Assembly (NCBI RefSeq): GCF_000266945.1
Contig: NC_018025.1
Span: forward strand, 434,001 to 498,000
Origin: Desulfomonile tiedjei DSM 6799
GTDB lineage: Bacteria > Desulfobacterota > Desulfomonilia > Desulfomonilales > Desulfomonilaceae
Direction: 5' to 3'
DNA: 64,000 nucleotides
Shown: in pieces, positions 44,680 through 58,788 of the stretch
How the letters are laid out: each line of letters begins with the position of its first letter
How positions within the stretch are numbered: the first letter of the stretch is position 1
Notes under the pieces: model-generated
What the model was told of the DNA's origin: nothing
What the model saw: only the letters and a program-made list of their open reading frames with translations
Database searches by the model: none
Made by a program: the position numbers and the translations under genes

Positions 44680-45231
44680 ATGCCTCTTGAAGTAGAAATC
44701 GGGGTCAAGATAAAGGCCCGGCGTCAGAGTAACAAGCAAACGCTCAAGCAGCTAGCGGAAAAAGTTGGGTGCACCAGTGCATACCTGTCACAGATCGAAC
44801 ACGGGAAAGTGTCCCCTTCAATTGCGAGTCTGAAAAAGATCGCCGATGCCCTTCAAGCAAAGATAAGCGATTTTTTTCTCGATTCAATTACGGATGATGT
44901 GGTCCTTCGGCCTGACCAGCGCACCTTGATTTCATTGAACATGTGGAACGCAAAAATCTGGTCGCTCGTTACCGATCCCAAGGACAAACGCATGCATCCT
45001 TTTTACACGGTGATCCAGCCCGGTGGCGGTTCCCACGGTTCGTACGCTCACGTGGGGGAAGAATTCGGGATTGTGCTTAAAGGGCAACTGGAAATCGAAT
45101 TGGACGGCGCCATTCACCGGGTTAACGAAAACGAGAGTTTTTACCATACTTCGTCATTACCTCATAAATGGACAAATCCGGGAACGACAGAGACTGTTGT
45201 GGTCTGGGTAATAAGTCCGCCGACCTTTTAA
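44680..45231 (+). CDS. XRE-family regulator with cupin sensor domain
   Basis: A 183-aa regulator. Residues 8-62 are a Cro/CI HTH (TLKQLAEKVGCTSAYLSQIE). Residues 105-175 are a cupin barrel that could bind a small effector or metal (HVGEEFGIVLKGQLEIELDG, ESFYHTSSLPHKWTN). Such MerR-sized XRE-cupin proteins typically control catabolic or transport genes and respond to the pathway substrate. It lies at the head of the TRAP/nicotinate-type gene set on the same strand, 264 nt before dctP, so it is the likely local regulator. Confidence 0.92.
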   Translation: MPLEVEIGVKIKARRQSNKQTLKQLAEKVGCTSAYLSQIEHGKVSPSIASLKKIADALQAKISDFFLDSITDDVVLRPDQRTLISLNMWNAKIWSLVTDPKDKRMHPFYTVIQPGGGSHGSYAHVGEEFGIVLKGQLEIELDGAIHRVNENESFYHTSSLPHKWTNPGTTETVVVWVISPPTF

Positions 45232-45495
45232 CGAGGATCGGCTCTTCAGCTAGCCGATCGACAACATGGGATGTCACGCCATCCTTTTGCAGCTTGCAAC
45301 TACGTGACCGCGCTGGATTCAAGAAATTGGCTCCAGGCGGTAATGAAATTTTGTTTTGACGTTATGGAAGCGATCCGATATCGATCATAATCGACATGCA
45401 TCAAAACCGCGGTCTGCTTAAATGTGCAGCCCCTGAACACAGGTTCATCTCAAAATCCCGCAGATGGACCTATCCCCAATGGAGGAACGGACATC

Positions 45496-46560
45496 ATGAA
45501 GAGAACCATGTTGTTGGCGTGCGCTCTGGCAATTGCGAGCATATTGCTCATTGGAAGTGGTCCGGCCACAGCAGCGGAAGGTGGAACCATCCATCTCAAA
45601 TTTAGCACCTGGCATCCGCCTGCAAGCCGTGAAGTGACGACGGTCTGGACTCCAATGCTGGAAGAGCTTAAGAAGAGAAGCAACGGACGCATCACATACA
45701 CCCTATACGCAGGTGGAGCTCTGGGTAAGGGTCCCGAACATTTCGATATCGTGAAAAAAGGTCTTTCGGATATGGGCTACTTTACCGCGACATGGACGCC
45801 CGGCCGATTTCCAATGACCGACGTGCTCTCTTTGGCTGCATGGGTAGACGGCAAGGAGCTTGCCACAGATATCGGTAATGCTATGAATAAGGAAATCCTG
45901 AACAAAGAATTTCAGGATGTAAAAGTGCTCGAACTCAATGGGTGTATTCAAGCGTTCCTGTGGACAACCAAACCCGTGCGCAGCCTGGAAGATCTGAAGG
46001 GTATGAAAATCAGGTCCCCGGGTGGAATGCAGACTGCTTACATCAAAGCTCTTGGCGCTGAACCCGTATTCATGCCGTTGGGTGATGTTTATATGGCGAT
46101 GGATACCGGAACCATAGACGGTCTGGTCACCTGCCCGCCGCTTATTCTTGCATTCAAACTTCATGAAGTAGCCAAACATGCGGTGAAAGCCACCTTCGGT
46201 TGTGTTTCGGAAGGCGTCGTAATGAACCAGAAAACCTGGGACAAAACCCCTCCGGACCTCCAGAAGATAATCATGGAAGTGGTCGGCAATCCGTTCGCCA
46301 CTACCCATGGGTTGGGGAAGAAGACGTACGCCCAGATGATGGAAGAACTTAAGGCAAAAGGCGCAAACATTTACGATCTGCCGCCCGACCAGGAAGCGAA
46401 GTGGTTTAAGGAATTCCAGGAAGCTACGAAAAAATGGGCAGCCGATCTGGAAAAACAGGGGCACCCGGCAAAAGAAGCGGTAATCATGTACAACAAGATT
46501 GCAGAAGAACACGGTACCAAGTGCGTTGCCTTTCCCCCTGAATGGGCCCAGAAAAAGTAA
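45496..46560 (+). CDS. dctP: TRAP transporter substrate-binding protein (DctP family)
   Basis: A 354-aa periplasmic binding protein. The signal peptide is MLLACALAIASILLIGSG, cut near ATAAE. The mature protein begins HLKFSTWHPPASREV and has the conserved carboxylate-binding arginine region LKGMKIRSPGGMQTAY, as well as MPLGDVYMAMDTGTIDGLVT. DctP proteins bind carboxylates, so a nicotinate-like acid fits the context. ATG 45496 follows GGAGGAAC; the frame's first 24 codons are not part of the protein. Confidence 0.94.
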   Translation: MKRTMLLACALAIASILLIGSGPATAAEGGTIHLKFSTWHPPASREVTTVWTPMLEELKKRSNGRITYTLYAGGALGKGPEHFDIVKKGLSDMGYFTATWTPGRFPMTDVLSLAAWVDGKELATDIGNAMNKEILNKEFQDVKVLELNGCIQAFLWTTKPVRSLEDLKGMKIRSPGGMQTAYIKALGAEPVFMPLGDVYMAMDTGTIDGLVTCPPLILAFKLHEVAKHAVKATFGCVSEGVVMNQKTWDKTPPDLQKIIMEVVGNPFATTHGLGKKTYAQMMEELKAKGANIYDLPPDQEAKWFKEFQEATKKWAADLEKQGHPAKEAVIMYNKIAEEHGTKCVAFPPEWAQKK

Positions 46561-46703: not shown

Positions 46704-47183
46704 ATGTATACCAGAATACGTGATGTCATCCAGACTGCCACGAGAGTGCTTGGTTATGTGGGCATGGTGTTTATCTTTCCTATGATGCTGCTGACTTCTG
46801 CAGACGCAACCTATCGGGATCTTTTTTCACGAACGATTCCGGGAGCATTTGAACTCTCCAGTTTGATGCTGTCGATCCTGGTCCTCCTCGGATTAGCCTA
46901 TGCTCAGCAAATGAGAGATCATGTGCGAGTTACGTTTCTTGTCGAACGTTTGCCGGAGAAACTGGGGACAATCGTTACTATCATCACGACGCTCATGAGC
47001 ATGTCCATTGTAGCAATATTGTGCTGGCAAGGAGTGGTTCTTTCTCTGGAGAATACACAAGTTTCCGACATGTTGCGCATTCCCCAGTGGCCGTTTCGCA
47101 TGTTGGTTGCTGTCGGAGCTTTTTTCTTGCTCCTTGAGTTCTTCTTCGATCTCGTAGATTCCGTGCGGAGGTTGGCTGAATGA
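46704..47183 (+). CDS. dctQ: TRAP transporter small permease subunit (DctQ family)
   Basis: A 159-aa membrane protein with four hydrophobic segments (VLGYVGMVFIFPMMLLTSAD, LSSLMLSILVLLGLAYAQQ, VTIITTLMSMSIVAILCW, RMLVAVGAFFLLLEFFF). The motif YAQQMRDHVRVTFLVERLP is characteristic of DctQ. It works with DctM as the sodium-coupled permease. ATG 46704 follows GAGGCAAC. Its stop overlaps the dctM start by 4 nt. Confidence 0.92.
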   Translation: MYTRIRDVIQTATRVLGYVGMVFIFPMMLLTSADATYRDLFSRTIPGAFELSSLMLSILVLLGLAYAQQMRDHVRVTFLVERLPEKLGTIVTIITTLMSMSIVAILCWQGVVLSLENTQVSDMLRIPQWPFRMLVAVGAFFLLLEFFFDLVDSVRRLAE

Positions 47184-48493
47184 TCGTAGATCCTGTAATG
47201 ATAGGCATATTGGGCTCTGTGAGTGTTTTCATACTCATATTCCTAGGCATGCACATAGCCTTCGCCATGATGTTTGTGGGATTCATAGGTCTTTACATCC
47301 TGTGCGCATTTGAACCCGCAGTTGCCGCCACCGCGAGTACCATGTGGGAAGTGGCCTCATTTTATCCTTATACCGTGATTCCGTTGTTTGTGATCATGGG
47401 ATCTCTCGCTGGCAGTTCGGGAATGACTCGGGATCTCTATACGTCGTTTGATAAATGGACCCGTAAAGTGCCGGGCGGATTGGCTGTTGCAACCATCGGC
47501 GCGTGCGGTGCTTTTGCTGCAGTGTCGGGCTCGTCCGTCGCAACTGCCGCGGCAATGGGAACAGTCGCACTTCCTGAAATGGAACGCTTCAAATACGATC
47601 CGAAGCTCTCAACCGGTAGTGTGGCGGCTGGAGGAACACTCGGTTTCCTCATACCGCCCGGTATCGGTTTTGTCGTGTACGGGATGCTCACGGAGCAATC
47701 AATAGGTAAGCTATTGATTTCCGGTGTTTTGCCCGGACTTCTCCTCGCTGGAGCATATGCGTCGATTTGTGTCTTGTGGGCCGTGCTTTATCCCCAAGCC
47801 GCTCCGAGAGATGTGGAACCCGTGACCTGGAAAGAGAAGCTCATTGCATTAAACGGAGTTAAAGAACCTCTTTTCATATTCCTGTTTGTTATCGGAGGCA
47901 TTTACACCGGCTTCTTCACTCCTGACGAAGCAGGAGCCATCGGTGCAACGATTTTGCTCATCGTAGCCGCAGTAAAAAGGAAGCTCACCTGGCCCGCCCT
48001 GTTCGGTTCCCTGACCGGCTCAATCCGCATTTCGGTGATGGTCTTGATGCTGGTCGCCGGCGCGAACGTGTTCAGCACCTTCATGGCACTCTCCACAATT
48101 CCCGTGCAAGCTGCCAACTGGGTCACGAGCTTTGATGTCTCACGTTATGTGATTCTTGCAATGATAATCCTCATATATGTAATACTTGGATGCTTTCTGG
48201 ACGCGATTTCCATGATGGTTCTCACTCTGCCGGTGGTGTTTCCAATAGTTTTGGCACTGCATTTCGATCCCATCTGGTTCGGTGTCGTCGCGGTCCTCAT
48301 GATGGAAGCAGGATTGATCACTCCTCCAATGGGACTCAATCTCTTCACGGTTGCAGGAGTTGCAAAAGGCGTGAGGTTGGAAACCATAATCAAAGGGACT
48401 GCGCCGTTCCTTGGTGCAATAATCGTTGTTGCCGTCATCTTGACCATATACCCCAACATTGCGCTGGTGCTACCGAAAATGATGGGAAAATAG
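47180..48493 (+). CDS. dctM: TRAP transporter large permease subunit (DctM family)
   Basis: A 437-aa membrane protein with about 12 hydrophobic helices and the DctM signatures GACGAFAAVSGSSVATAAAM, GGTLGFLIPPGIGFVVYG and GLITPPMGLNLFTVAGVAKG. It forms the ion-coupled transport channel that accepts substrate from DctP. ATG 47180 overlaps the dctQ stop. It ends 191 nt before the aldehyde dehydrogenase gene. Confidence 0.95.
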   Translation: MIVDPVMIGILGSVSVFILIFLGMHIAFAMMFVGFIGLYILCAFEPAVAATASTMWEVASFYPYTVIPLFVIMGSLAGSSGMTRDLYTSFDKWTRKVPGGLAVATIGACGAFAAVSGSSVATAAAMGTVALPEMERFKYDPKLSTGSVAAGGTLGFLIPPGIGFVVYGMLTEQSIGKLLISGVLPGLLLAGAYASICVLWAVLYPQAAPRDVEPVTWKEKLIALNGVKEPLFIFLFVIGGIYTGFFTPDEAGAIGATILLIVAAVKRKLTWPALFGSLTGSIRISVMVLMLVAGANVFSTFMALSTIPVQAANWVTSFDVSRYVILAMIILIYVILGCFLDAISMMVLTLPVVFPIVLALHFDPIWFGVVAVLMMEAGLITPPMGLNLFTVAGVAKGVRLETIIKGTAPFLGAIIVVAVILTIYPNIALVLPKMMGK

Positions 48494-48684: not shown

Positions 48685-50166
48685 ATGGCTCTATTACCTG
48701 AGGTGAAGAGGCATTACGGAAAGCTGAAATTGCTCATTGACGGGGAATGGGTGGAATCCAAATCGACCCTGGTTCATGAGACCGTCAATCCTGCCACTGG
48801 CGAAGTCATCGCTGAATTTCCCACTGCCACCACGGAAGAGGCCCGGGCGGCTGTCGAAGCAGCGCAACGCGGGTTCGAGGCCATGAAAAAAATCCCCTTG
48901 CGTGAACGGGCAAAGATGCTGTTCGACATGCGCCAGCGATTTGAAGAGCGATTTGATGAGTTGACACGCGTTCTCACTCAGGATCACGGCAGAACCATAA
49001 AGGAATCCATCGGGTCGGTGCGGAGAGTCATCGAGAACATCGAATCTGCCTGCTCCGCAGCGTACGGTCTTGCTTCACGCAATGAGCACATGGACGCTCT
49101 CGCGAACGGGATCGACATGTGGCTGACCTGGGAGCCTATGGGCGCGTTTCTCATCGTCACTCCGGGAAATATTCCCATGCACGCATGGTCTTCGTTTGTC
49201 CCGTATGCTCTCGCCGCAGGGTGTTCCGTCGTGGTTAGCCCCAGCAGGCAGGATCCCGTAGCAGCAGAATATGTTGCGAGAGCCGCATTGGAAGCAGGAT
49301 GGCCGAACGGGGCAATCAACCTGATCCACGGTGGCAGAGAGATCAACAAGTACATACTCCGACAGCCGGAAATCCAGGGTCTCGGGTTCATTGGCTCGAC
49401 ACACGCAGGCTGGGAGCTTTTCAAATTGTGCGGAGAGCTTGGCAAAAACTCATCCATTAACGGCAACGGCAAGAATACGGTTGTGATTATGCCGGACGCA
49501 AATGTCAATGCGATCGCTCCTTATCTGAGGCAGGGCTGTTTCGGGATGACCGGTCAGCGTTGTCTGGGATCGGACAACGTGGTTGTCGTCGGCGACATCT
49601 ATGATGAGTTAAAGAAGCAATTCACAGCAGAGGCAAGGGCCATGAAACTGGGATACGGCCTTGATGAATCAACGGCCATGGGACCTTACTGCACTGCCGG
49701 CGGAAGAGACAAAGTGGATGCATGGGTACAACGCGCTTTAGCCGAAGGAGCCACGATGGTTCAGGATGGCCGGATTCTTCCCGGTGAATTGAAAAAGGGT
49801 TTCTTCATGGCTCCGACCATTATCGAGAATGTGCACCCGGATATGGAAGTTGCCAAGGAAGAAGCATTCGGTGCCGTCGCAGCCCTTATCCGTGCAGAAA
49901 GCCTGGATCAGGTGATCGAATGGATAAACACCAAGACCGATCTGGGCCATTCCGCATGCATCATGACGGAGAGCGGTCGAAATGCCCGGAAATTCGCCAG
50001 AGAAGTGAATGTTGGAAACGTGGGGATCAATGTGGGAGTTCCCCAACCCTTTGCCTTTTTCCCTCTGGGATCCAAACGGAAATCCTTTTTCGGAGGCGCA
50101 AAGAGCAGAATGGCTTCCATGAGGCTTTTCCTGGACGAGAAAACCGTAACGGCACGGTGGGTGTAA
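48685..50166 (+). CDS. Aldehyde dehydrogenase of the methylmalonate-semialdehyde (CoA-acylating) type
   Basis: A 493-aa ALDH. The catalytic Cys is C293 in GMTGQRCLGSD. The loop that carries the general-base Glu in ordinary ALDHs reads INGNGKNTVVIMPDANVN, without that Glu, as in CoA-acylating MMSDH (MmsA/IolA). R113/R114 (GSVRRVIENIE) and R292 match the two arginines that hold the substrate carboxylate in MMSDH. The C-terminal GNVGINVGVPQPFAFFPLGS also follows MMSDH. The usual LKPSE stretch is changed to VSPSRQ. MMSDH oxidatively decarboxylates 2-formyl acids to acyl-CoA. Context suggests 2-formylglutarate as substrate, yielding glutaryl-CoA. ATG follows AAGGAGAG. Confidence 0.88.
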   Translation: MALLPEVKRHYGKLKLLIDGEWVESKSTLVHETVNPATGEVIAEFPTATTEEARAAVEAAQRGFEAMKKIPLRERAKMLFDMRQRFEERFDELTRVLTQDHGRTIKESIGSVRRVIENIESACSAAYGLASRNEHMDALANGIDMWLTWEPMGAFLIVTPGNIPMHAWSSFVPYALAAGCSVVVSPSRQDPVAAEYVARAALEAGWPNGAINLIHGGREINKYILRQPEIQGLGFIGSTHAGWELFKLCGELGKNSSINGNGKNTVVIMPDANVNAIAPYLRQGCFGMTGQRCLGSDNVVVVGDIYDELKKQFTAEARAMKLGYGLDESTAMGPYCTAGGRDKVDAWVQRALAEGATMVQDGRILPGELKKGFFMAPTIIENVHPDMEVAKEEAFGAVAALIRAESLDQVIEWINTKTDLGHSACIMTESGRNARKFAREVNVGNVGINVGVPQPFAFFPLGSKRKSFFGGAKSRMASMRLFLDEKTVTARWV

Positions 50167-50250: not shown

Positions 50251-50562
50251 AATCGAGGTCTTTCGCGACCGATGCGATTCGATTCGCTCATCACATCCTA
50301 CGTGAGCTGTTCCCGCTCCGGCGGATCAGGTAGGGGCATCCCTTGTGGATGCCCGGTAGCGACCGGCCTCCGTGCCGGTCATCCGGGACGGGCAGGCATC
50401 CCGCAGACAGCGAGACGCGTGGCTACGAGAACGGTTTCTCCCAATTTTCGTTAACACCCCTTTTCTGAAGGGGCAAGGTTCAGCTTTTGACTATCACAAG
50501 CTACCTCAAGGTAGCAGCTTCGATATAACGCGCAAGACGGAATGTACAAAACGGACGGCAGT
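50251..50562. other. Intergenic stretch before the molybdenum hydroxylase genes
   Basis: Contains several short palindromes (GGCATCCCTTGTGGATGCCC, GACCGGCCTCCGTGCCGGTC, CCCCTTTTCTGAAGGGG) related in composition to the window's repeat cores. Terminal repeats were not resolved. A separate promoter for the hydroxylase operon may lie here. Confidence 0.4.
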
Positions 50563-51033
50563 ATGCTGAAGATTAGTTTTCAACTCAATGGAAAAGAAGT
50601 TTCAATCGAGGTTAATCCGGAGGATTCCGCGCTTATGGTGCTGCGGGACCGGTTCCATTTGAAAGGTGCCAAAGAAGGCTGCGGCATTGGTGAATGCGGT
50701 GCTTGCACGATCCTGGTGGATGGGCTTGCGGTCAACTCGTGCCTCATGTTGGCAGCACAGCTTGATGGTAGAAATGTTAAGACTGTCGAAGGTCTCATGC
50801 ACCAGGAAAAGATGGATATTCTCCAGAAAGAGTTCATAGAGCACGGTGCTATTCAGTGCGGATTTTGTACACCGGGGATGTTGCTGTCGGCACGAGCGCT
50901 CCTGGACGAGAATCCCAACCCGGATCGCGATAGTGTTGTCGAAGCGCTCTCAGGCAATCTGTGTCGTTGCACCGGGTACGTGCAAGTTGTTGAAGCAGTG
51001 GAAGCCGCCGCTGAAAAACGAGAATCCCGATGA
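50563..51033 (+). CDS. Molybdenum hydroxylase, 2Fe-2S small subunit
   Basis: A 156-aa protein of the xanthine dehydrogenase family with two 2Fe-2S clusters. The plant-type site is EGCGIGECGACTILVDG followed by NSCLMLA. The helical site has QCGFCTPGML and GNLCRCTGYVQVVEA. It passes electrons from the Mo centre to FAD. In E. barkeri the comparable nicotinate dehydrogenase subunit is NdhS. ATG 50563 is chosen as start because MLKISFQLNG begins the fold; ATG 50542 is an in-frame alternative. Its stop overlaps the next start (ATGA). Confidence 0.94.
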   Translation: MLKISFQLNGKEVSIEVNPEDSALMVLRDRFHLKGAKEGCGIGECGACTILVDGLAVNSCLMLAAQLDGRNVKTVEGLMHQEKMDILQKEFIEHGAIQCGFCTPGMLLSARALLDENPNPDRDSVVEALSGNLCRCTGYVQVVEAVEAAAEKRESR

Positions 51034-51896
51034 GATCGAGTTTCCGCTATATTCGGCCGAATTCTCTTAATGAGGCGCTTTCCTGTCTCGCGGAACAGGG
51101 CGAACGGGCTGCCGTAATTGCGGGTGGAACGGATTTGTCGATTACAATCCGTAAAGGAGAGTTGAACAAGGATTGTGTGGTGGATATCTCGCGGCTTCCT
51201 GAAGCCAAAGCTGTGGAATTGGCCGATGGTGCGCTCTTATTGGGAGCAGCGCTGACATTCACGGAACTGATCCGAAATCCACTTATAGCAAAACACGCTC
51301 CTGTTTTAGGAGCGGCATGTCGTTGTATAGGAAGCGTTCAAATTCGAAACGCGGGAACCCTTGGCGGTAATGTTGCGAACGCTTCACCGGCTGCGGACAG
51401 TGTTCCGGCACTCATGGTGCATAATGCCAGAGTCCTGGTACAAAGCCTTGCATCACAAAGAGTGCTCACACTGGCCCAAGTTGTAACCGGTCCGTATACG
51501 ACCACCCTGGAGCCTGGAGAAATCATTTTAGGATTTCTCGTCGACCTGATGCCTTCGACGTATCGTTTCAGTTTTCAGCGAATAGCGCGACGAAAAGCTC
51601 TATCCATAGCGCGGGCCAATGCAGCGGTGCTTTCATGTCAAAGCTCTGAAGGTAAAGTGATCGACTTCCGTTTGTCAGTGGGATCGATAACGCCACGCCC
51701 TTGTCGCTTGAGTGAAGCGGAGGCGCATCTCGTCGGGCAAATCCCTTCGATTCGGCTCATCAAGGAAGCCGCGGAACTAGTGACACGCGAGATGATTCGC
51801 AAGAGTGGTGTTCGATCGTCCACGGAATACAAGAAACCGGCCGTTGAGGGTCTGGTCCTGAAGACCATCACTGACGTTTTTCGGCCCTACCTGTAA
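51030..51896 (+). CDS. Molybdenum hydroxylase, FAD-binding medium subunit
   Basis: A 288-aa protein with the two FAD-contact motifs of the CoxM/NdhF family: VIAGGTDLSITIRKGE and IRNAGTLGGNVANASPAADS. It takes electrons from the 2Fe-2S subunit to FAD and on to an acceptor. Length is normal for stand-alone FAD subunits. ATG 51030 overlaps the stop of the preceding gene. Confidence 0.94.
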   Translation: MRSSFRYIRPNSLNEALSCLAEQGERAAVIAGGTDLSITIRKGELNKDCVVDISRLPEAKAVELADGALLLGAALTFTELIRNPLIAKHAPVLGAACRCIGSVQIRNAGTLGGNVANASPAADSVPALMVHNARVLVQSLASQRVLTLAQVVTGPYTTTLEPGEIILGFLVDLMPSTYRFSFQRIARRKALSIARANAAVLSCQSSEGKVIDFRLSVGSITPRPCRLSEAEAHLVGQIPSIRLIKEAAELVTREMIRKSGVRSSTEYKKPAVEGLVLKTITDVFRPYL

Positions 51897-51937: not shown

Positions 51938-54268
51938 ATGGACGTGACTGAAGCCCCTGCTCAGTCGCTGTCCGCAGTAATCTCGAGGTCTACAATAAGT
52001 ATCATGCTAGAACCTTCCTTCCGTCACATAGGAACAAACATTCCTCGGACCGGCTCTGCGGAGCGGGCATTAGGAACTGCCGCCTTTTCCGCGGATCTGG
52101 AAATGCCCTCGGCGCTGACACTCCTCGTGCTGAGGAGCAATCGACATCATGCTCAGATTCTCGAGATCGACACAAGTCGCGCAGAAAAGGTGCCCGGTTG
52201 CGTGCGAGTATTCACCGCTCGTGATATTCCGGGACGAAATCGTCTGGGAATAATTAACAAGGACCAGCGTCTGCTTGCCGACGATAAGGTGCGATGCGTA
52301 GGCGATCCTGTGGCTCTGATAGCAGCGGAGACGCCTGACGCTGCCGAACGGGCTTTGGCGGAGATCCGAGTGGAATATAAGGATCTCCCGTCCGTTTTCG
52401 ATCCTGAAGAAGCCCTGAGACCCGGGGCTCCGGAGATCCACGAAGACGGTAATCTGCTGGGATCGCGATTCGTGCTCCGTGGAAATCCCGACGAAGCATT
52501 CAAGCACTGCGAAGTAGTTGTGGAACAGGTCTATACCACCGGATTCGTAGAGCACACCTACCTGGAGCCGGATTCGGGAATCGCATACGTGGACGAAGAC
52601 GGCGTGCTGGTGATCCACGCTTCCACCCAGAATCCTCATTACGATCAGAAGGACGTTGCAGATCTTCTCGGGATAGAGGAGGACAAGGTTCGAATCATCC
52701 AGTCTGCCACGGGAGGGGGATTCGGTTCCAAGCTGGATATGAATGTCCAGGGATTTGTGGGGCTCGCGGCATTCCTCCTTCAACGACCCGCTCGCATGGT
52801 ATACACGCGGGAAGAAGCTTTTCTGGCAACTGCGAAACGCCATCCATTGAAGATCTGGTTTAAATCCGGAGCAACGCGGGACGGCAGACTGCTTGCAGTG
52901 GATGTGTCCATCATCGGAGACACCGGGGCATATGCTTCCTATGGACTGGCCGTTGTGAGCAGGGCCGCTGTGCACGCGACGGGACCGTACGAAGTGCCGA
53001 ATGTCCGAATTGAGTCTCGATTCTCGTACACCAACAATCCCATGGCTGGGGCGATGAGAGGATTCGGCGTACCCCAGGTAGCCCTGGCTCATGAATCCCA
53101 GATGGACATGTTGGCCGAGCGCTTGGGTCTGAGTCCCTTCGAGATCAGGCTCCGAAATTGTTATCGAATAGGATCCACGACAGCTACAGGTCAAGAATTG
53201 CAGGCCAGTGTGGGAATCGGCGCAGCCCTCGAGGCTATCGGTCCTCATTATCATGAAGCGATTGCTGCAAAGGAAGAAGTAAAGCATAAACCTTATGTAC
53301 GCCGGGGCGTAGGCATCGGCGCCATGATGTACGGAATCGGCAATACAGGAATGCGGAATCCCTCGAGCGCTCAGATGAAGCTCGATCTCAATGGAAATGT
53401 TTCATTGTTCACCGGTGCTGCCGATATAGGGCAAGGCTCTTCCACGGTCCTGCTGCAGATAGCCGCTGAGGAGCTGAACATCGATCCTGATGACATAAGC
53501 CTCATTGTGGCAGATACGATGCTTACCACGTCGGCAGGCGCAACCTCTGCGAGTCGCCAGACGTATATTTCGGGAAATGCGGTATTGGACGCAGCCAAGA
53601 AACTGAAAGATGTGATTCTGACCCAGGCTGCAACGATTCTGAAGACAGACAAGGCCCAACTGGTCCTGGAAAACGGGTGGGTTCATTCAAAGACCAACGT
53701 CGTTGACGGCGTTTCTTTCAAACGCATCGCCGAACGAGCTCACAAAGCGGGGTTGCCGCTCAATTGGCAGGGCTATTTCGATCCTGACACTACTCCCCTC
53801 GATCCGGAAACCGGTCATGGACGTCCGTACTCCACCTATGCGTTCGCCACTCACCTGGTTGAAGTCGAGGTAGATACGCTCACGGGGGAAGTGCGGGTGC
53901 TCAAGGTTGTTGCCGCGCACGATGTCGGAAAGGCAATCAACCCTCGGAATGTCCACGGTCAGATCTATAGCGGCGTGGTGATGGGCATCGGATTTGCTCT
54001 CATGGAGGAGTTCTTCCCGGGACGGACAGAGTCCATGAAAGATTACCACATTCCTTGTGCCGCAGACGTGCCGCAAATCATGTCGATAATCATCGAAGAT
54101 CCGGAACCCACAGGCCCGTTCGGGGCCAAAGGGGTCGGGGAACCCGCTCTTATTCCCACTGCACCCGCAATACTGAACGCCATCAAGGATGCGCTTGGGG
54201 TAAGAATCTACAGTCTGCCCGCGAACCTGGAACGAGTGATGAAAGCTTGCCTTGTGGCACAAACCTGA
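51938..54268 (+). CDS. Molybdenum hydroxylase, large Mo-cofactor subunit (nicotinate dehydrogenase-like)
   Basis: A 776-aa (or 754-aa) protein with xanthine-dehydrogenase family motifs: FVEHTYLEPDSG, ATGGGFGSKLD, GAMRGFGVPQVALAHESQ, GAADIGQGSSTVLLQIAAEE and the active-site Glu in FGAKGVGEPALIPTAPAIL. It should hydroxylate an N-heteroaromatic ring next to nitrogen with water as oxygen source, e.g. nicotinate to 6-hydroxynicotinate. E. barkeri splits this subunit into NdhL and NdhM; here it is one chain. The start is uncertain: ATG 51938 or ATG 52004 (MLEPSFRHIG), the latter fitting the family better. Exact substrate is inferred from neighbours. Confidence 0.9.
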   Translation: MDVTEAPAQSLSAVISRSTISIMLEPSFRHIGTNIPRTGSAERALGTAAFSADLEMPSALTLLVLRSNRHHAQILEIDTSRAEKVPGCVRVFTARDIPGRNRLGIINKDQRLLADDKVRCVGDPVALIAAETPDAAERALAEIRVEYKDLPSVFDPEEALRPGAPEIHEDGNLLGSRFVLRGNPDEAFKHCEVVVEQVYTTGFVEHTYLEPDSGIAYVDEDGVLVIHASTQNPHYDQKDVADLLGIEEDKVRIIQSATGGGFGSKLDMNVQGFVGLAAFLLQRPARMVYTREEAFLATAKRHPLKIWFKSGATRDGRLLAVDVSIIGDTGAYASYGLAVVSRAAVHATGPYEVPNVRIESRFSYTNNPMAGAMRGFGVPQVALAHESQMDMLAERLGLSPFEIRLRNCYRIGSTTATGQELQASVGIGAALEAIGPHYHEAIAAKEEVKHKPYVRRGVGIGAMMYGIGNTGMRNPSSAQMKLDLNGNVSLFTGAADIGQGSSTVLLQIAAEELNIDPDDISLIVADTMLTTSAGATSASRQTYISGNAVLDAAKKLKDVILTQAATILKTDKAQLVLENGWVHSKTNVVDGVSFKRIAERAHKAGLPLNWQGYFDPDTTPLDPETGHGRPYSTYAFATHLVEVEVDTLTGEVRVLKVVAAHDVGKAINPRNVHGQIYSGVVMGIGFALMEEFFPGRTESMKDYHIPCAADVPQIMSIIIEDPEPTGPFGAKGVGEPALIPTAPAILNAIKDALGVRIYSLPANLERVMKACLVAQT

Positions 54269-54394: not shown

Positions 54395-55555
54395 ATGTCC
54401 ACAACGTTGATTAAGAATATTGGAACACTGATTAGTGGCGACATACAGAATCCGATTCTCCAGGCTGATGCCATTCTTATCTCTGACGGTAAAATTCAGA
54501 AAATCGGGAACACCGCGGAACTTGAATCCTTCGGAGCAAATCAGGTGGTTGACGCTCTCGGCAGTACTATAATCCCAGGGCTTATCGACTCCCATTGCCA
54601 TGTAGTTTTGGGAGACTTTACTCCTCGTAAGAATCAAATTGGTTTCATAGATAGTGAAGTGCATGGAGGCGTAACGACCGTGATATCCGCCGGAGAAGTG
54701 CATCTTCCCGGAAGACCGAAAGATCCGGCCGGGACCAAAGCTCTTGCGATTCTTGCTGCCAAATCGTTTGCGTCGTTCAGGCCCGGCGGAGCAAAGGTAG
54801 TCGGCGGCGCAGTTATCCTGGAAAAAGGACTCACTGAGAAGGACTTCGAAGAAATGTCCAAAGAAGGCGTCAAGATTGTAGGGGAAATAGGACTGGGTTC
54901 AGTGAAGTCTCCGGAAGACGCAGCTCCCATGGTTCAGTGGGCTAAGAAATATGGAATGACTGTGCTCATGCACACAGGCGGGACGTCAATTCCGGGAAGC
55001 GACACAGTGACGGCCGACCAGGTCATAGCCGCAGATCCGCATGTCGCCTGCCATGTGAACGGCGGTCCCACATCGGTATCAGTAGCTGAAATTGAAAAGC
55101 TGGTAAAAAATACTGCGTATACTCTCGAAATCGTGCACTGCGGAAACCCAAAAGCCACAGTGGACGCGCTCAATCTGGGAATGCAGCAGGGATGCCTCGA
55201 TCGATTTATCATCGGCAACGATGCACCATCGGGTACCGGGGTCGTGCCTCTGGGCATACTGAGAGTGGTCTGCATGGCCGCATCTCTTACCGATGTGCAA
55301 CCCGAGCAGGCTCTGTGCATGGCAACCGGCAATACAGCCAAAGTCTTCAAACTGGATAGGGGCTTTGTCCGGGAAGGTCTGGCTGCAGATCTCGTGTCCA
55401 TTGACGCTCCCATGGGTTCAGTCGGAAAGAATGCTCTGGACGCGATTAGAGCCGGAGACGTTCCCGGCGTTTCCATGGTGATGATAGACGGTAAAATACA
55501 GGTCAGCGTGAGCAGGAATACTCCGCCTGCAGTACGCAAAGCAAAACTGCTGTAA
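54395..55555 (+). CDS. ena: Enamidase (6-oxo-1,4,5,6-tetrahydronicotinate amidohydrolase)
   Basis: A 386-aa amidohydrolase. I recognise the close pattern of Eubacterium barkeri enamidase: IKNIGTLISGDIQNPILQAD, GRPKDPAGTKALAI, GGAVILEKGLTEKDF, HTGGTSIPGSDTVTADQV, IGNDAPSGTGVVPLGILR and SRNTPPAVRKAKLL. The binuclear metal site begins with DSHCHV (H-x-H). It hydrolyses tetrahydro-6-oxonicotinate to 2-formylglutarate and ammonia. It follows the hydroxylase subunits and precedes the putative 6-hydroxynicotinate reductase, giving consecutive pathway steps in order. This is the strongest pathway marker in the island. Confidence 0.9.
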   Translation: MSTTLIKNIGTLISGDIQNPILQADAILISDGKIQKIGNTAELESFGANQVVDALGSTIIPGLIDSHCHVVLGDFTPRKNQIGFIDSEVHGGVTTVISAGEVHLPGRPKDPAGTKALAILAAKSFASFRPGGAKVVGGAVILEKGLTEKDFEEMSKEGVKIVGEIGLGSVKSPEDAAPMVQWAKKYGMTVLMHTGGTSIPGSDTVTADQVIAADPHVACHVNGGPTSVSVAEIEKLVKNTAYTLEIVHCGNPKATVDALNLGMQQGCLDRFIIGNDAPSGTGVVPLGILRVVCMAASLTDVQPEQALCMATGNTAKVFKLDRGFVREGLAADLVSIDAPMGSVGKNALDAIRAGDVPGVSMVMIDGKIQVSVSRNTPPAVRKAKLL

Positions 55556-55606: not shown

Positions 55607-57106
55607 ATGCGTGTAAATATCGAAAAATGCAAAGGATGCGGCGCATGCGTGGCAGATTGCCCGCAAAACGCCATTCGTCTGTCCAAGAAGAAAGCGGTAA
55701 TCGGCGATTCCTGCTCGGAATGCGGCGCATGCCTCAAGGTGTGCCCGGACGGTGCGCTTTTTCCTGAGGATGCTCCTGTAGCCGGTGCGGTTCGGTGTGA
55801 GTCCTGTCCTATCCGGTGTCAGGTCAAGGAAGGCTTTTACGGGGCATGCCAGCGATTCCTAAACCGCAATGGCACTCTGGAACGCACGATTTCGCTACAA
55901 ACCTATGAAGATGTCCGTCACCTTGTCGGCCCGGACTGGAATCCCGTTATTCGGACCCCTCTCATCACGGCAATCGGTGCCGGAACCACGTACCCGGACT
56001 GCAAGCCTGCGCCGCATATTGTTCAATCCAAGGTTGAAGGTGTGGACGTCGTAACGGTAGTAACTGAAGCGCCACTCAGCTATTCCGGGATAAAAGTCAA
56101 AATCGACACGGATACCACTATAGGCACGGAAGGTGCGCCGATAATCCACCGCAGGAAGAAGGTGGGGCATCTCACTACTGAAGAGTATGGTTCGAAAATT
56201 CTTTCTATAGGAGGAGTGAACCTTCTTACCGGACCGGATGGATTGACGGTCGCACGACTGGTGTCGGACATAGCGAATCGCAGGAAAGTAAAGCTCCGTA
56301 TCGAGGACGGCAGCAGCCTTGAACTGCAGGTAGGCAACCGTCCGCTCATTGACGGCAAGCAGGATGACTTCATGAGAGTCGGTTGCGGAAGCGCCACTCT
56401 GGGACTGTTCGCTAATATATTCAGAGAAGTGGCTGACGAAGTGATCGTACTGGATTCCCACCTTACGGGTCTCATGAGCGAACACGCTGCTGGAGTGTTC
56501 GTCGGGGCGAAGCCCAGCGGAGTTCGCCTACGGTTCAAACGCAGCACTCCAGGCAGATACTTCGGAGACCACGGTCCTGGATGGGGTGGCACGTCAATTA
56601 CCGATCCTGCTGCCATTGTGGAATCTATCGATATGAGCGTCGCCAAGCCGGGAATGAAGATTCTCATAACCGAGACAACCGGCCGGAATGCTGCGTATTT
56701 CGAAGTCAATTCCAATGGAAAATTGTCCGAGCTGTCCATGCCTCCGCAGGCTGCATCGGCTATTGCGGAACTCGCTGCGACATGCCAGGAATCCAGGGTG
56801 TCAGCAGTCTATTGCGGTGGTTCCGGCGGAAGTGCCCGTGCGGGAATCACTCGATATCCCATAAAACTGACTCAGGCGGTGCACGGAATGAAGGCGCGTC
56901 TTACAATCGGAGGCGCTCCCGCGTTCGTGCTTCCCGGAGGAGGAATAAACTTCATGGTGGATGTGGAAAAGGTCATGCCCGGAGCATTCACCTGGGTACC
57001 CACTCCCGCTACTGTCTGTCCGGTCGAATACACCATGACGCTGGACGATTTCCGTGACATGGGCGGTCATGTGGAAGCAATGAAGCCGTTTGCTGCAAAG
57101 GAGTAA
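55607..57106 (+). CDS. hnr: Probable 6-hydroxynicotinate reductase (2x[4Fe-4S] protein)
   Basis: A 499-aa protein. Two ferredoxin-type 4Fe-4S sites are at the start: C8, C11, C14, C18 and C36, C39, C42, C46. A further group C64, C67, C71 and C81 could hold another cluster. The rest is a large Gly-rich domain (ITETTGRNAAYFEVNSNGKL, YCGGSGGSARAGITRYPIKL). E. barkeri Hnr is an Fe-S/flavin enzyme that reduces 6-hydroxynicotinate with ferredoxin to tetrahydro-6-oxonicotinate, the enamidase substrate. Position right after ena, size and clusters fit this. The stop TAA (57104) is in frame with the next gene. Confidence 0.75.
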   Translation: MRVNIEKCKGCGACVADCPQNAIRLSKKKAVIGDSCSECGACLKVCPDGALFPEDAPVAGAVRCESCPIRCQVKEGFYGACQRFLNRNGTLERTISLQTYEDVRHLVGPDWNPVIRTPLITAIGAGTTYPDCKPAPHIVQSKVEGVDVVTVVTEAPLSYSGIKVKIDTDTTIGTEGAPIIHRRKKVGHLTTEEYGSKILSIGGVNLLTGPDGLTVARLVSDIANRRKVKLRIEDGSSLELQVGNRPLIDGKQDDFMRVGCGSATLGLFANIFREVADEVIVLDSHLTGLMSEHAAGVFVGAKPSGVRLRFKRSTPGRYFGDHGPGWGGTSITDPAAIVESIDMSVAKPGMKILITETTGRNAAYFEVNSNGKLSELSMPPQAASAIAELAATCQESRVSAVYCGGSGGSARAGITRYPIKLTQAVHGMKARLTIGGAPAFVLPGGGINFMVDVEKVMPGAFTWVPTPATVCPVEYTMTLDDFRDMGGHVEAMKPFAAKE

Positions 57107-57157: not shown

Positions 57158-57964
57158 GTGGAATGCGGCCCTCTGCGCATGTTCATCGAAGGACTGAAAT
57201 CCGGACTGCCGCAATCTGACATCTGCATGCAAGCCGCTGAATCCGCGGTCGGTTTTCTCGAAGAAATCGCCCGAGAGTGGGAGACTTTGAAAAAACCGTT
57301 TGGACAAATTCCGGAACCGTCCTCCGGAAGTCTGGCGCATGAAATGTGGCGGGCAGTATCCCTTGTGGGTCATGACGACCTTACCCCTATGGCTGCAGTG
57401 GCTGGGACTATAGCGGATGCCACCGCGGATGTTCTGGAAAAAAGAGGTCTGACCAGGGTTGTGGTGAACAACGGTGGAGATATTGCCGTGAGATTGAAAG
57501 ATCCCGAGTCGCTCCGAATAGGCATTCGACCGGATATTTCTTCTCATGAGATCAGTCATACGATCCGCGTTGATTCTTCTCTCCATGTCGGAGGAATCTG
57601 CACAAGCGGGCTCGGTGGGAGAAGCTTGAGCCGCGGGATTGCCTCTGCAGCAACCGTCTTCGCTGCCAGAGCGTCGGTAGCTGATGCGGCTGCTACCGCA
57701 GTAGCCAACGCGACCTATATTCCCCATCCTTCGGTGAAACGAGTCCTCGCTGAAAAGCTCGACCCGGATACAGACCTGAAAGGAATCGAAGTCACCGTCT
57801 CAGTCGGAACTTTATCTGCATCCGATATCGATCGAGCCCTCATCCAGGGTATCAACTGCGCCGAACAACTGGTGAAGAAACGAACTATTCATGGAGCATG
57901 CGTGGCCGTACAGGGTAAAATGGCTTGCACCACAACCTTTTCCCCACTGATTCACGTATTGTGA
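57158..57964 (+). CDS. UPF0280-family protein
   Basis: A 268-aa protein of the UPF0280/ApbE-like fold. Diagnostic parts are DLTPMAAVAGTIADATADVL, VVVNNGGDIAVRL and ARASVADAAATAVANATY. Related ApbE enzymes attach FMN to proteins, and the NGGD motif is shared, but UPF0280 has no assigned function. The annotated start is GTG 57158 behind AAGG. The 17 codons before it (NVAWECTIVALDDGKVL) are open and in the same frame as the upstream reductase, separated only by one TAA. A fused ancestor or unusual initiation is possible. The last codon touches element C. Confidence 0.82.
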   Translation: MECGPLRMFIEGLKSGLPQSDICMQAAESAVGFLEEIAREWETLKKPFGQIPEPSSGSLAHEMWRAVSLVGHDDLTPMAAVAGTIADATADVLEKRGLTRVVVNNGGDIAVRLKDPESLRIGIRPDISSHEISHTIRVDSSLHVGGICTSGLGGRSLSRGIASAATVFAARASVADAAATAVANATYIPHPSVKRVLAEKLDPDTDLKGIEVTVSVGTLSASDIDRALIQGINCAEQLVKKRTIHGACVAVQGKMACTTTFSPLIHVL

Positions 57965-58209: not shown

Positions 58210-58788
58210 ATGGAGATACGGAAGATCGTCAAGATTGTAGAAGAGACCCGGATGGAAGCGGGCAAACCTGTCCAACCCGCTGCCAGGCGAGCCGCTGCTG
58301 TGGCCGTTATTAAGAATCCCTTTGCGGGCCGATATGAAGAAAATATTGATGAATTGATCGCTGTAGGTGAAGAGCTCGGGGGAATGTTGGCAAAGATGGC
58401 TGTGGAAGCGCTTGGGATAGCTCCCGATCAGGTCGAGAGCTATGGGAAGGCAGCCATTGTCGGGAACCGTGGCGAGCTCGAGCATGCAGCCGCAATTCTT
58501 CATCCTAAGCTTGGCGGACCTTTCCGCGATGCTGTGGGTGGAGGAAAGGCGCTGATTCCTTCATCCAAGAAAATGGGTTGTTCAGGGACGGAAATAGATG
58601 TGCCCTTGCATTATAAAGATGCAGCTTTTGTACGATCCCATTTCGACGCCATGGCCGTGAGAGTTCAGGATGCACCAAGGGGTGATGAAATCGTAGTAGC
58701 CATTGTGGTTACTGCATCGGGTCGTCCGCTGCCGAGAGTAGGTGGATTGAAGAAAGAGGATGCGAAGAAAGAAGACGGTTTGAGATAA
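58210..58788 (+). CDS. DUF1185 (amino acid synthesis family) protein
   Basis: A 192-aa protein resembling family PF06684. Visible parts are KIVKIVEETRMEAGKPVQP, AVIKNPFAGRYEENIDELIA and LIPSSKKMGCSGTEIDVPLH. The function is not established; structures suggest a tie to AtzD/TrzD ring-opening hydrolases. In this position it could act on a ring or lactam intermediate, or on a side product. ATG 58210 follows AAAGGAG; the frame extends back into element C but without support. It is the last gene of the island on this strand. Confidence 0.85.
   Translation: MEIRKIVKIVEETRMEAGKPVQPAARRAAAVAVIKNPFAGRYEENIDELIAVGEELGGMLAKMAVEALGIAPDQVESYGKAAIVGNRGELEHAAAILHPKLGGPFRDAVGGGKALIPSSKKMGCSGTEIDVPLHYKDAAFVRSHFDAMAVRVQDAPRGDEIVVAIVVTASGRPLPRVGGLKKEDAKKEDGLR

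Follow-up and report, generated by a model that had tools for sequence, protein, structure and literature searches.

What becomes of the product of enamidase in an anaerobe whose nicotinate genes stand beside a gene for an aldehyde dehydrogenase (ALDH)? This question is raised by a 64,000-nucleotide stretch of the Desulfomonile tiedjei DSM 6799 genome (NC_018025.1, positions 434,001 to 498,000), the whole of which is called the window here. Two published reports describe the enamidase of Eubacterium barkeri as converting 1,4,5,6-tetrahydro-6-oxonicotinate to (S)-2-formylglutarate and NH3 (PMC7356986, PMC9304392). By homology, the window enamidase is predicted to make the same two products. The ALDH gene upstream of it, at positions 48685-50166, encodes a protein of the methylmalonate-semialdehyde dehydrogenase (MMSDH) type, and a preliminary description of the locus proposed that this protein takes 2-formylglutarate directly to glutaryl-CoA. 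Our comparative analysis makes it quite probable that the gene encodes a CoA-acylating, decarboxylating 2-formylglutarate dehydrogenase, with which the upper nicotinate pathway would end. By analogy with MMSDH we infer its substrate, the decarboxylation and the use of both CoA and NAD+, the reaction being 2-formylglutarate + NAD+ + CoA -> glutaryl-CoA + CO2 + NADH.

The gene is genuine, with an open reading frame (ORF) that is intact from an ATG start to a stop codon, and its product contains the ALDH domain PF00171 (383 bits). Among 41 NCBIfam models the best is TIGR01722, the CoA-acylating MMSDH (339.5 bits), with the runner-up, 2,5-dioxovalerate dehydrogenase (266.2 bits), 73 bits lower. 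The top ten matches in a search of PDB sequences are all MMSDHs. Consistently, an AlphaFold2 model of the protein (mean pLDDT 88) lies nearest to 1T90 in VIA-align (Z 51.0, root-mean-square deviation 1.6 A over 479 residues, 32% identity), where the top five entries are MMSDHs, the fifth (49.5) being tied with a betaine aldehyde dehydrogenase (49.2), and Foldseek returns 9Q0D, 1T90 and 4ZZ7 as the nearest structures. In alignment, C293 occupies the position of the catalytic cysteine, within GMTGQRCLG, and R114 and R292 align with the conserved arginines of 1T90, 5TJR, 4ZZ7, 9Q0D and human ALDH6A1, which presumably correspond to R124 and R301 in B. subtilis numbering. The position of the general-base glutamate, E268 in ALDH2 numbering, is N259 in the window protein and Glu in all five ordinary ALDHs of the same alignment. 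The cysteine, the paired arginines and the loop without a general base had been named in the preliminary description, and alignment with the five MMSDH references confirms all three. With these residues, and with its place among the MMSDH references in the tree described below, the protein belongs to the wider MMSDH-like group.

An IQ-TREE tree was built from 62 proteins with five other ALDHs as the outgroup, after removal of L156 and L163 (duplicates of included rows), L167 (a copy of L024), L166 (a copy of G128B) and the fragments L165 and L170. Two clades of interest emerge, clade A with 24 rows, to which the window protein belongs, and clade B with 12 rows, each monophyletic with support of 100/100. 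Both group with the MMSDH references against the five outgroup ALDHs (support 100/98, some outgroup branches being long enough to draw a program warning), so the ALDH phylogeny that had been proposed as a check puts the window protein with the MMSDHs. R114, R292 and C293 are retained in all 24 clade A and all 12 clade B rows, and none of these 36 has Glu at the general-base position; the first arginine is Lys in 7 of 15 other MMSDH-like proteins. The best tree separates A from B, and a topology joining the two is not rejected (p-AU 0.273). For this reason two independent recruitments were dropped as an established result, convergence is not claimed, and the clades may stem from one ancient origin or from two recruitments.

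Both clades are tied to enamidase by their distribution. Among 118 genomes drawn evenly from the phylum, enamidase (E<=1e-60) is present in 23, and 19 of these carry a clade A or B ALDH, which is full-length or nearly so (E<=1e-100) in 18 and a fragment in one (G053). The remaining 95 genomes hold no full-length A or B match at E<=1e-100, fragments not having been sought there. The association is strong (Fisher p 2e-18 over the 118 genomes, 4e-17 on full-length matches alone), and in 17 of the 19 genomes the two genes lie on one contig, 659-8288 bp apart, one of the 17 (G133) having its ALDH as a fragment at a contig end; they are on separate contigs in G090 and G053. A chance neighbourhood is ruled out by these two results. 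Clusters differ in where the ALDH gene lies (ahead of NdhS, between NdhLM and either Hnr or enamidase, or after the PF06684 gene), indicating that its linkage to enamidase has survived rearrangement. Among genomes with other TIGR01722-matching ALDHs, 9 of 18 are without enamidase.

The same picture is found at closer range, among 42 genomes of the class. Enamidase occurs in 13 of them, and 12 of the 13 carry clade A or B; the only one without (G004) is a draft that is 82% complete. Clade A is present in eight genomes, including the window's own, and the other seven proteins are 76-89% identical to the window ALDH. Clade B is present in seven genomes, at 32-36% identity to the window ALDH, and lies in or beside the nicotinate cluster in all seven. 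The possibility that the ALDHs of 32-36% identity beside enamidase in genera g4 and g6 are unrelated was ruled out, since the three that were scanned exceed the MMSDH cut-off. Taken together, these genomes suggest that the nicotinate shortcut is common in the phylum. We think it likely that about one sixth of the sampled phylum genomes (19 of 118) encode a B12-independent anaerobic nicotinate pathway with one-step formation of glutaryl-CoA, served by two deep MMSDH-type clades that are changed at the same pocket positions.

Tight co-occurrence with enamidase also bears on a more ordinary role, that of a methylmalonate- or malonate-semialdehyde dehydrogenase adjoining the nicotinate genes by coincidence. 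Such a role would account for the family resemblance in NCBIfam model and fold, but it is very improbable given this co-occurrence, pocket positions unlike those of 21 other MMSDH-like rows, and a separate ALDH above the MMSDH cut-off at C1:6170808 of the same genome, the substrate of which is itself uncertain.

Our scan of 84,980 species genomes for enamidase gave at least 58 loci. The enamidases of L020-L048 are complete or nearly so, and L049-L077 are partial or weak matches that were not counted as enamidases; L020, L021, L022, L023 and L024 were treated as the same contigs as in G007, G008, G003, G005 and G064. Short or broken contigs are L021, L027, L030 and L031, and the clade A ALDH of the metagenome contig L030 (L030:5389-6906) is read in three pieces, probably through assembly frameshifts. 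At the E. barkeri locus (L036), enamidase is surrounded by genes for Hgd (3CKY, 2-hydroxymethylglutarate dehydrogenase), a B12-binding mutase, a PrpF-type isomerase, and serine-dehydratase-like and aconitase-like proteins. Among the matches listed, enamidase stands with Hgd and 2-methyleneglutarate mutase (Mgm) at eight loci (L033, L034, L036, L037, L038, L039, L045 and L048; in L033 and L039 Mgm extends past the end of the stretch examined), hosted by Firmicutes, Planctomycetaceae and Ca. Adiutrix, and with Hgd and Hmd only at four clostridial loci (L040, L042, L043 and L044). No ALDH matching the window protein was found at any of these 12 loci within the flanks examined, and no match to Hgd, Hmd, Mgm, Mii or Dmd was found in the loci with a clade A or B ALDH or among the window ORFs from position 30001 on.

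Mgm was also not found in the 42 class genomes, the window's included, which gave only matches to the B12-binding domain, nor in any of the 118 phylum genomes at E<=1e-60; as a control, the search recovered four of four known holders, one being E. barkeri, the query's own genome. A B12 route elsewhere in the genome is thereby ruled out as far as Mgm is concerned, Hgd, Hmd, Mii and Dmd being generic families that were not sought genome-wide. The expectation that no E. barkeri-type lower pathway is encoded elsewhere therefore stands for the mutase, at the level of genome, class and phylum sample. The proposed replacement of the B12 route is supported by an ALDH family that is tied to enamidase across the phylum and stands where other organisms have Hgd, Hmd and Mgm. 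Within the flanks examined, the four clostridial loci gave no match to nicotinate dehydrogenase (Ndh) or 6-hydroxynicotinate reductase (Hnr), suggesting that they act on a different ring or that their clusters are split. In addition, L045, L046 and L047 carry tandem enamidase homologues, the second of which is 31-37% identical to the window enamidase.

The substrate pocket offers a rationale for how an MMSDH-type enzyme might accept 2-formylglutarate. At position 464, clade A has Lys (17 rows) or Arg (7) and clade B has Arg in 12 of 12, and neither residue occurs in the 21 other MMSDH-like rows, which include six with His and five with Trp. Position 461 is Leu or Met in clade A, Val in clade B and Phe in all 21 others, and position 170 is Ser in clade A, Tyr in clade B and Trp in all 21. 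Two further residues, I163 and H166, are unique to clade A among MMSDH-like rows. The clade-specific pocket candidates of the window ALDH are thus I163, H166, S170, L461 and K464, where the six MMSDH reference rows have F, M, W, F and W (S in human), respectively. Both clades appear to have altered the same positions, with Phe giving way to Leu or Val, Trp to Ser or Tyr, and a Lys or Arg newly introduced, changes to be expected if the substrate is bulkier and carries one more carboxylate. The smaller side chains and the added basic residue would fit a substrate whose side chain is carboxyethyl in place of methyl, and K464 and H166 may hold the distal carboxylate. The separate ALDH of the same genome mentioned above (G000:C1:6170808-6172250, L111) scores above the MMSDH cut-off, yet Lys occupies its first arginine position and its loop reads LTEAKNH. 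Six other rows with Lys at that position share an LTEAKNH-like loop with small variations, and the L111 enzyme may act on a substrate other than methylmalonate semialdehyde.

These features can be assembled into a candidate mechanism. Nicotinate would be hydroxylated by Ndh, reduced by Hnr and opened by enamidase to (S)-2-formylglutarate. The C1 carboxylate of this aldehyde would be gripped by R114 and R292, a pair that in MMSDH presumably clamps the carboxylate that leaves as CO2, while C293 would attack the aldehyde and a hydride would pass to NAD+, giving a 2-carboxyglutaryl-enzyme thioester of the malonyl type. Loss of the C1 carboxyl as CO2 would then yield the glutaryl-enzyme, with the former aldehyde carbon as its thioester. 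As the general-base Glu for hydrolysis is missing, the acyl group would go to CoA and glutaryl-CoA would be released. By analogy the chemistry is sound, since MMSDH would carry out the same reaction with a shorter homologue. No paper among those listed from the Creative Commons-licensed PubMed Central literature, as judged mainly by title and the start of the abstract, describes the step from 2-formylglutarate to glutaryl-CoA or names such an enzyme. What is predicted to be new is the pathway and the substrate, the enzyme chemistry being known.

The main rival to this sequence of events is that 2-formylglutarate is decarboxylated first, spontaneously or by an unseen enzyme, to glutarate semialdehyde (5-oxopentanoate), which the ALDH would then convert with CoA to glutaryl-CoA. 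As a matter of general chemistry, 2-formyl acids are beta-oxo acids that shed CO2 readily; the Azorhizobium pathway reportedly ends in glutarate, and MMSDHs also take simple aldehydes. We nevertheless consider it rather unlikely, as the arginine pair is kept in 36 of 36 clade A and B rows, whereas the first of the two is Lys in 7 of 15 other MMSDH-like proteins, and as the nearest kin by NCBIfam and tree are MMSDHs and not succinate-semialdehyde dehydrogenases. The loss of the general base speaks to a second alternative, an ordinary ALDH that releases a free acid (glutarate or 2-carboxyglutarate) for later activation by a CoA ligase or transferase. The low clade A scores against the curated MMSDH model would agree with such an enzyme, as would N259, which is rare in the family (most other rows have L or Q there). 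It is very improbable in view of the missing Glu in all 36 rows and of the cluster gene content. None of the unlabelled ORFs that recur in 38 cluster stretches was recognised as a CoA ligase or transferase (8 ORFs were checked against Pfam and the others by eye), which is the expected outcome if the thioester is formed directly by a decarboxylating 2-formylglutarate dehydrogenase.

Glutaryl-CoA made in this way would enter a trunk for which the genome has candidate genes. Glutaryl-CoA dehydrogenase and glutaconyl-CoA decarboxylase, encoded outside the cluster, would lead on to crotonyl-CoA and acetyl-CoA. A search of the genome for enzymes that act on glutaryl-CoA, as the preliminary description had proposed, came out in its favour. 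Of 20 acyl-CoA dehydrogenase matches, two have NF045552 (the Desulfococcus-type glutaryl-CoA dehydrogenase; cut-off 470) as their best model: C1:5628717-5630078, at 470.2 bits, and C1:2695681-2696853, just below the cut-off at 461.1 bits, with Desulfococcus 3MPI as its best PDB match. The latter sits 850 bp upstream of a gene for a 622-amino-acid glutaconyl-CoA decarboxylase alpha subunit (GcdA), which scores 772 bits against GcdA 3GF3 and at best 148.5 against anything outside GcdA. Only this alpha subunit of the decarboxylase is identified with certainty; a single Na+-pump decarboxylase beta subunit (TIGR01109) is encoded elsewhere in the genome, and the rest of the decarboxylase was not seen in its neighbourhood.

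Several observations weigh against our assignment. The downstream enzymes were sought in the window genome only and serve other substrates too, so that their presence permits the pathway and is no proof of it. Three class genomes (G006, G010 and G011; 82-86% complete) have a clade A or B ALDH without an enamidase match; ndh genes stand on the same contig as the ALDH in both G011 and G006, pointing to incomplete assemblies. Four of the 23 phylum genomes with enamidase lack clade A and B. Three of these (G151, G152 and G153) are 76-80% complete, and in the fourth (G075) the enamidase is 50% identical, has no Ndh or Hnr beside it, and is accompanied in the genome only by ALDHs of 30-31% identity, which were left off the tree. 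The curated TIGR01722 cut-off of 448.5 bits is not reached by the window ALDH or by other clade A proteins (four scanned, at 367-430 bits, and a further set), nor by the clade B protein of G128 (440.7 bits); clade B otherwise exceeds it, in three of three scanned in the class (486-490 bits) and in G048, G061, G085 and G133. The MMSDH-type label of the preliminary description thus holds for best model, fold and tree, but the protein is more diverged than was implied, being below this cut-off and changed in its pocket. Residues 455-460 of the AlphaFold2 model, in the pocket region, are of low confidence, and lineage drift might account for the basic-residue signature.

Finally, a clade A copy in G087 (C309), 78% identical to the window ALDH, lies in a cluster without enamidase, which adds to these points in that clade A may serve other aldehydes. 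Strict confinement of clade A to enamidase clusters is ruled out by this copy. Its cluster (L204:5570-12976) encodes an OYE-type flavoenzyme, an N-acetylneuraminate-lyase-family protein, a beta-aspartyl-peptidase homologue and a 502-amino-acid protein with no NCBIfam match, and may provide a further route to a 2-formyl acid.

In the window, the ALDH gene is part of a same-strand run that begins with a regulator and transporter genes and continues through the upper nicotinate pathway (Table 1). The neighbours assumed in the preliminary description are borne out in the enamidase, the molybdenum hydroxylase and the Hnr-like protein. The best PDB match of the fused molybdopterin subunit, 3HRD, is the E. 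barkeri nicotinate dehydrogenase, in which NdhL and NdhM are the products of two genes, whereas the window has one. The enamidase aligns with E. barkeri 2VUN over its full length without gaps, and H67, H69, H193, H220 and D276, which we take to be the metal ligands, are invariant. The E. barkeri ORF that serves as the Hnr reference is likewise presumed to be 6-hydroxynicotinate reductase.

Table 1. Genes of the nicotinate cluster, with coordinates in the window.
Feature	Position	Strand	Remarks
XRE-HTH + cupin regulator	44680-45231	+	recurs in related clusters
TRAP transporter substrate-binding protein DctP	45424-46560	+	family models
TRAP small permease DctQ	46704-47183	+	family models
TRAP large permease DctM	47180-48493	+	family models
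MMSDH-type ALDH, clade A	48685-50166	+	predicted CoA-acylating, decarboxylating 2-formylglutarate dehydrogenase; 493 amino acids
NdhS-like [2Fe-2S] subunit of Mo-hydroxylase (nicotinate dehydrogenase)	50542-51033	+	
NdhF-like FAD subunit	51030-51896	+	
Fused NdhL+NdhM-like molybdopterin subunit	51938-54268	+	best PDB match 3HRD chain A, 431 bits; chain B, 264
Enamidase	54395-55555	+	58% identity to 2VUN, 386 amino acids
6-hydroxynicotinate reductase-like Fe-S protein (Hnr)	55607-57106	+	Fer4 domains; 49% identical to E. barkeri L036:1833-3332
ApbE/UPF0280-like protein	57158-57964	+	usually adjoins Hnr
PF06684 (AA_synth, DUF1185) protein	58210-58788	+	conserved near enamidase in both cluster kinds

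Transport and accessory genes vary around this core. The DctP-type transporter of the window probably imports nicotinate or a relative. In several related clusters a Liv-type ABC transporter, identified by eye from the genes present, takes the place of the TRAP system (importers compared in the window, L024, L025, L079 and L089), and the enzymes remain constant. The PF06684 protein accompanies enamidase both in ALDH-bearing clusters and in those of the E. barkeri kind (for example L036:11194-11775), as well as on Hecatellales archaeal contigs (L035 and L041), and its gene occurs twice in tandem in the clostridia L040, L042 and L043. It likely takes part in the upper pathway.

Is nicotinate the substrate of these clusters? 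A different N-heterocycle could be imagined, with a substituted or otherwise different 2-formyl acid as the aldehyde, since Ndh, Hnr, the ApbE-like protein and enamidase are 29-58% identical to their E. barkeri counterparts and a clade A copy occurs in a cluster without enamidase. To this we attach very little probability: the enamidase matches 2VUN at 58% without gaps, the genes of the E. barkeri upper set (Ndh, Hnr, enamidase, ApbE-like and PF06684) remain clustered, and some related clusters carry genes of nicotinate metabolism. A nicotinamidase-like protein is encoded in 5 of the 38 cluster stretches, four with a clade A or B ALDH (L025, L211, L215 and L216) and one without (L223); examples are L025:6074-6796, L215:6304-7167 and L223:8743-9456. 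In the three that were scanned, nicotinamidase is the top NCBIfam model at 152-167 bits, just below the cut-off of 174, and the best PDB matches of the L223 copy are solved nicotinamidases. L025 also encodes a nicotinate phosphoribosyltransferase (L025:14956-16419; 650 bits, cut-off 469). These genes support nicotinate as the pathway substrate and make another N-heterocycle less likely, and they raise the possibility that the pathway takes in nicotinamide as well. Some of the nicotinamidase-like proteins have, by eye, a hydrophobic N-terminus resembling a signal peptide.

Other unlabelled ORFs that recur in the clusters are GntR-type regulators, an OYE-type flavoenzyme, RsmB/formyltransferase neighbours and antisense ORFs. 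An OYE-family flavoenzyme gene stands directly before NdhS in G053 (L222:3537-5495), where others have the transporter or ALDH gene, and a partial homologue occupies the same site in G153 (L224). In a genome that also has a clade A cluster, a second enamidase homologue (41%) is found with Hnr-like and Mo-hydroxylase genes (L226, G064:C240).

Should the assignment be correct, nicotinate breakdown in many anaerobes would bypass the rare steps of E. barkeri, including the coenzyme-B12 carbon-skeleton mutase, and nicotinate carbon would enter the glutaryl-CoA/crotonyl-CoA trunk directly. The ALDH6/MMSDH family would gain a new dicarboxylic substrate, and annotators a genome-context rule that separates such genes from true MMSDH. 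In addition, the fate of nicotinate in such anaerobes would become testable with one purified enzyme.

The nicotinate pathway of Azorhizobium caulinodans (Kitts 1992) is reportedly aerobic, its carbon probably reaching glutarate or glutaryl-CoA. Its steps between ring opening and glutaryl-CoA are not known to involve an enzyme like the window ALDH. Likened by description, it shares with the window pathway the hydrolytic opening of tetrahydro-oxonicotinate to (S)-2-formylglutarate, and one report groups A. caulinodans with E. barkeri up to that intermediate (PMC9304392). With MMSDH (IolA, MmsA, ALDH6A1) the window ALDH shares the fold, the catalytic Cys, the arginine pair, the lack of a general-base Glu and about 32% identity, but it scores below the curated cut-off, has an altered pocket and sits in a nicotinate cluster. 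With the E. barkeri pathway the window shares the Ndh, Hnr, enamidase, ApbE-like and PF06684 genes, and differs in having an MMSDH-type ALDH in place of Hgd, Hmd, Mgm, Mii and Dmd.

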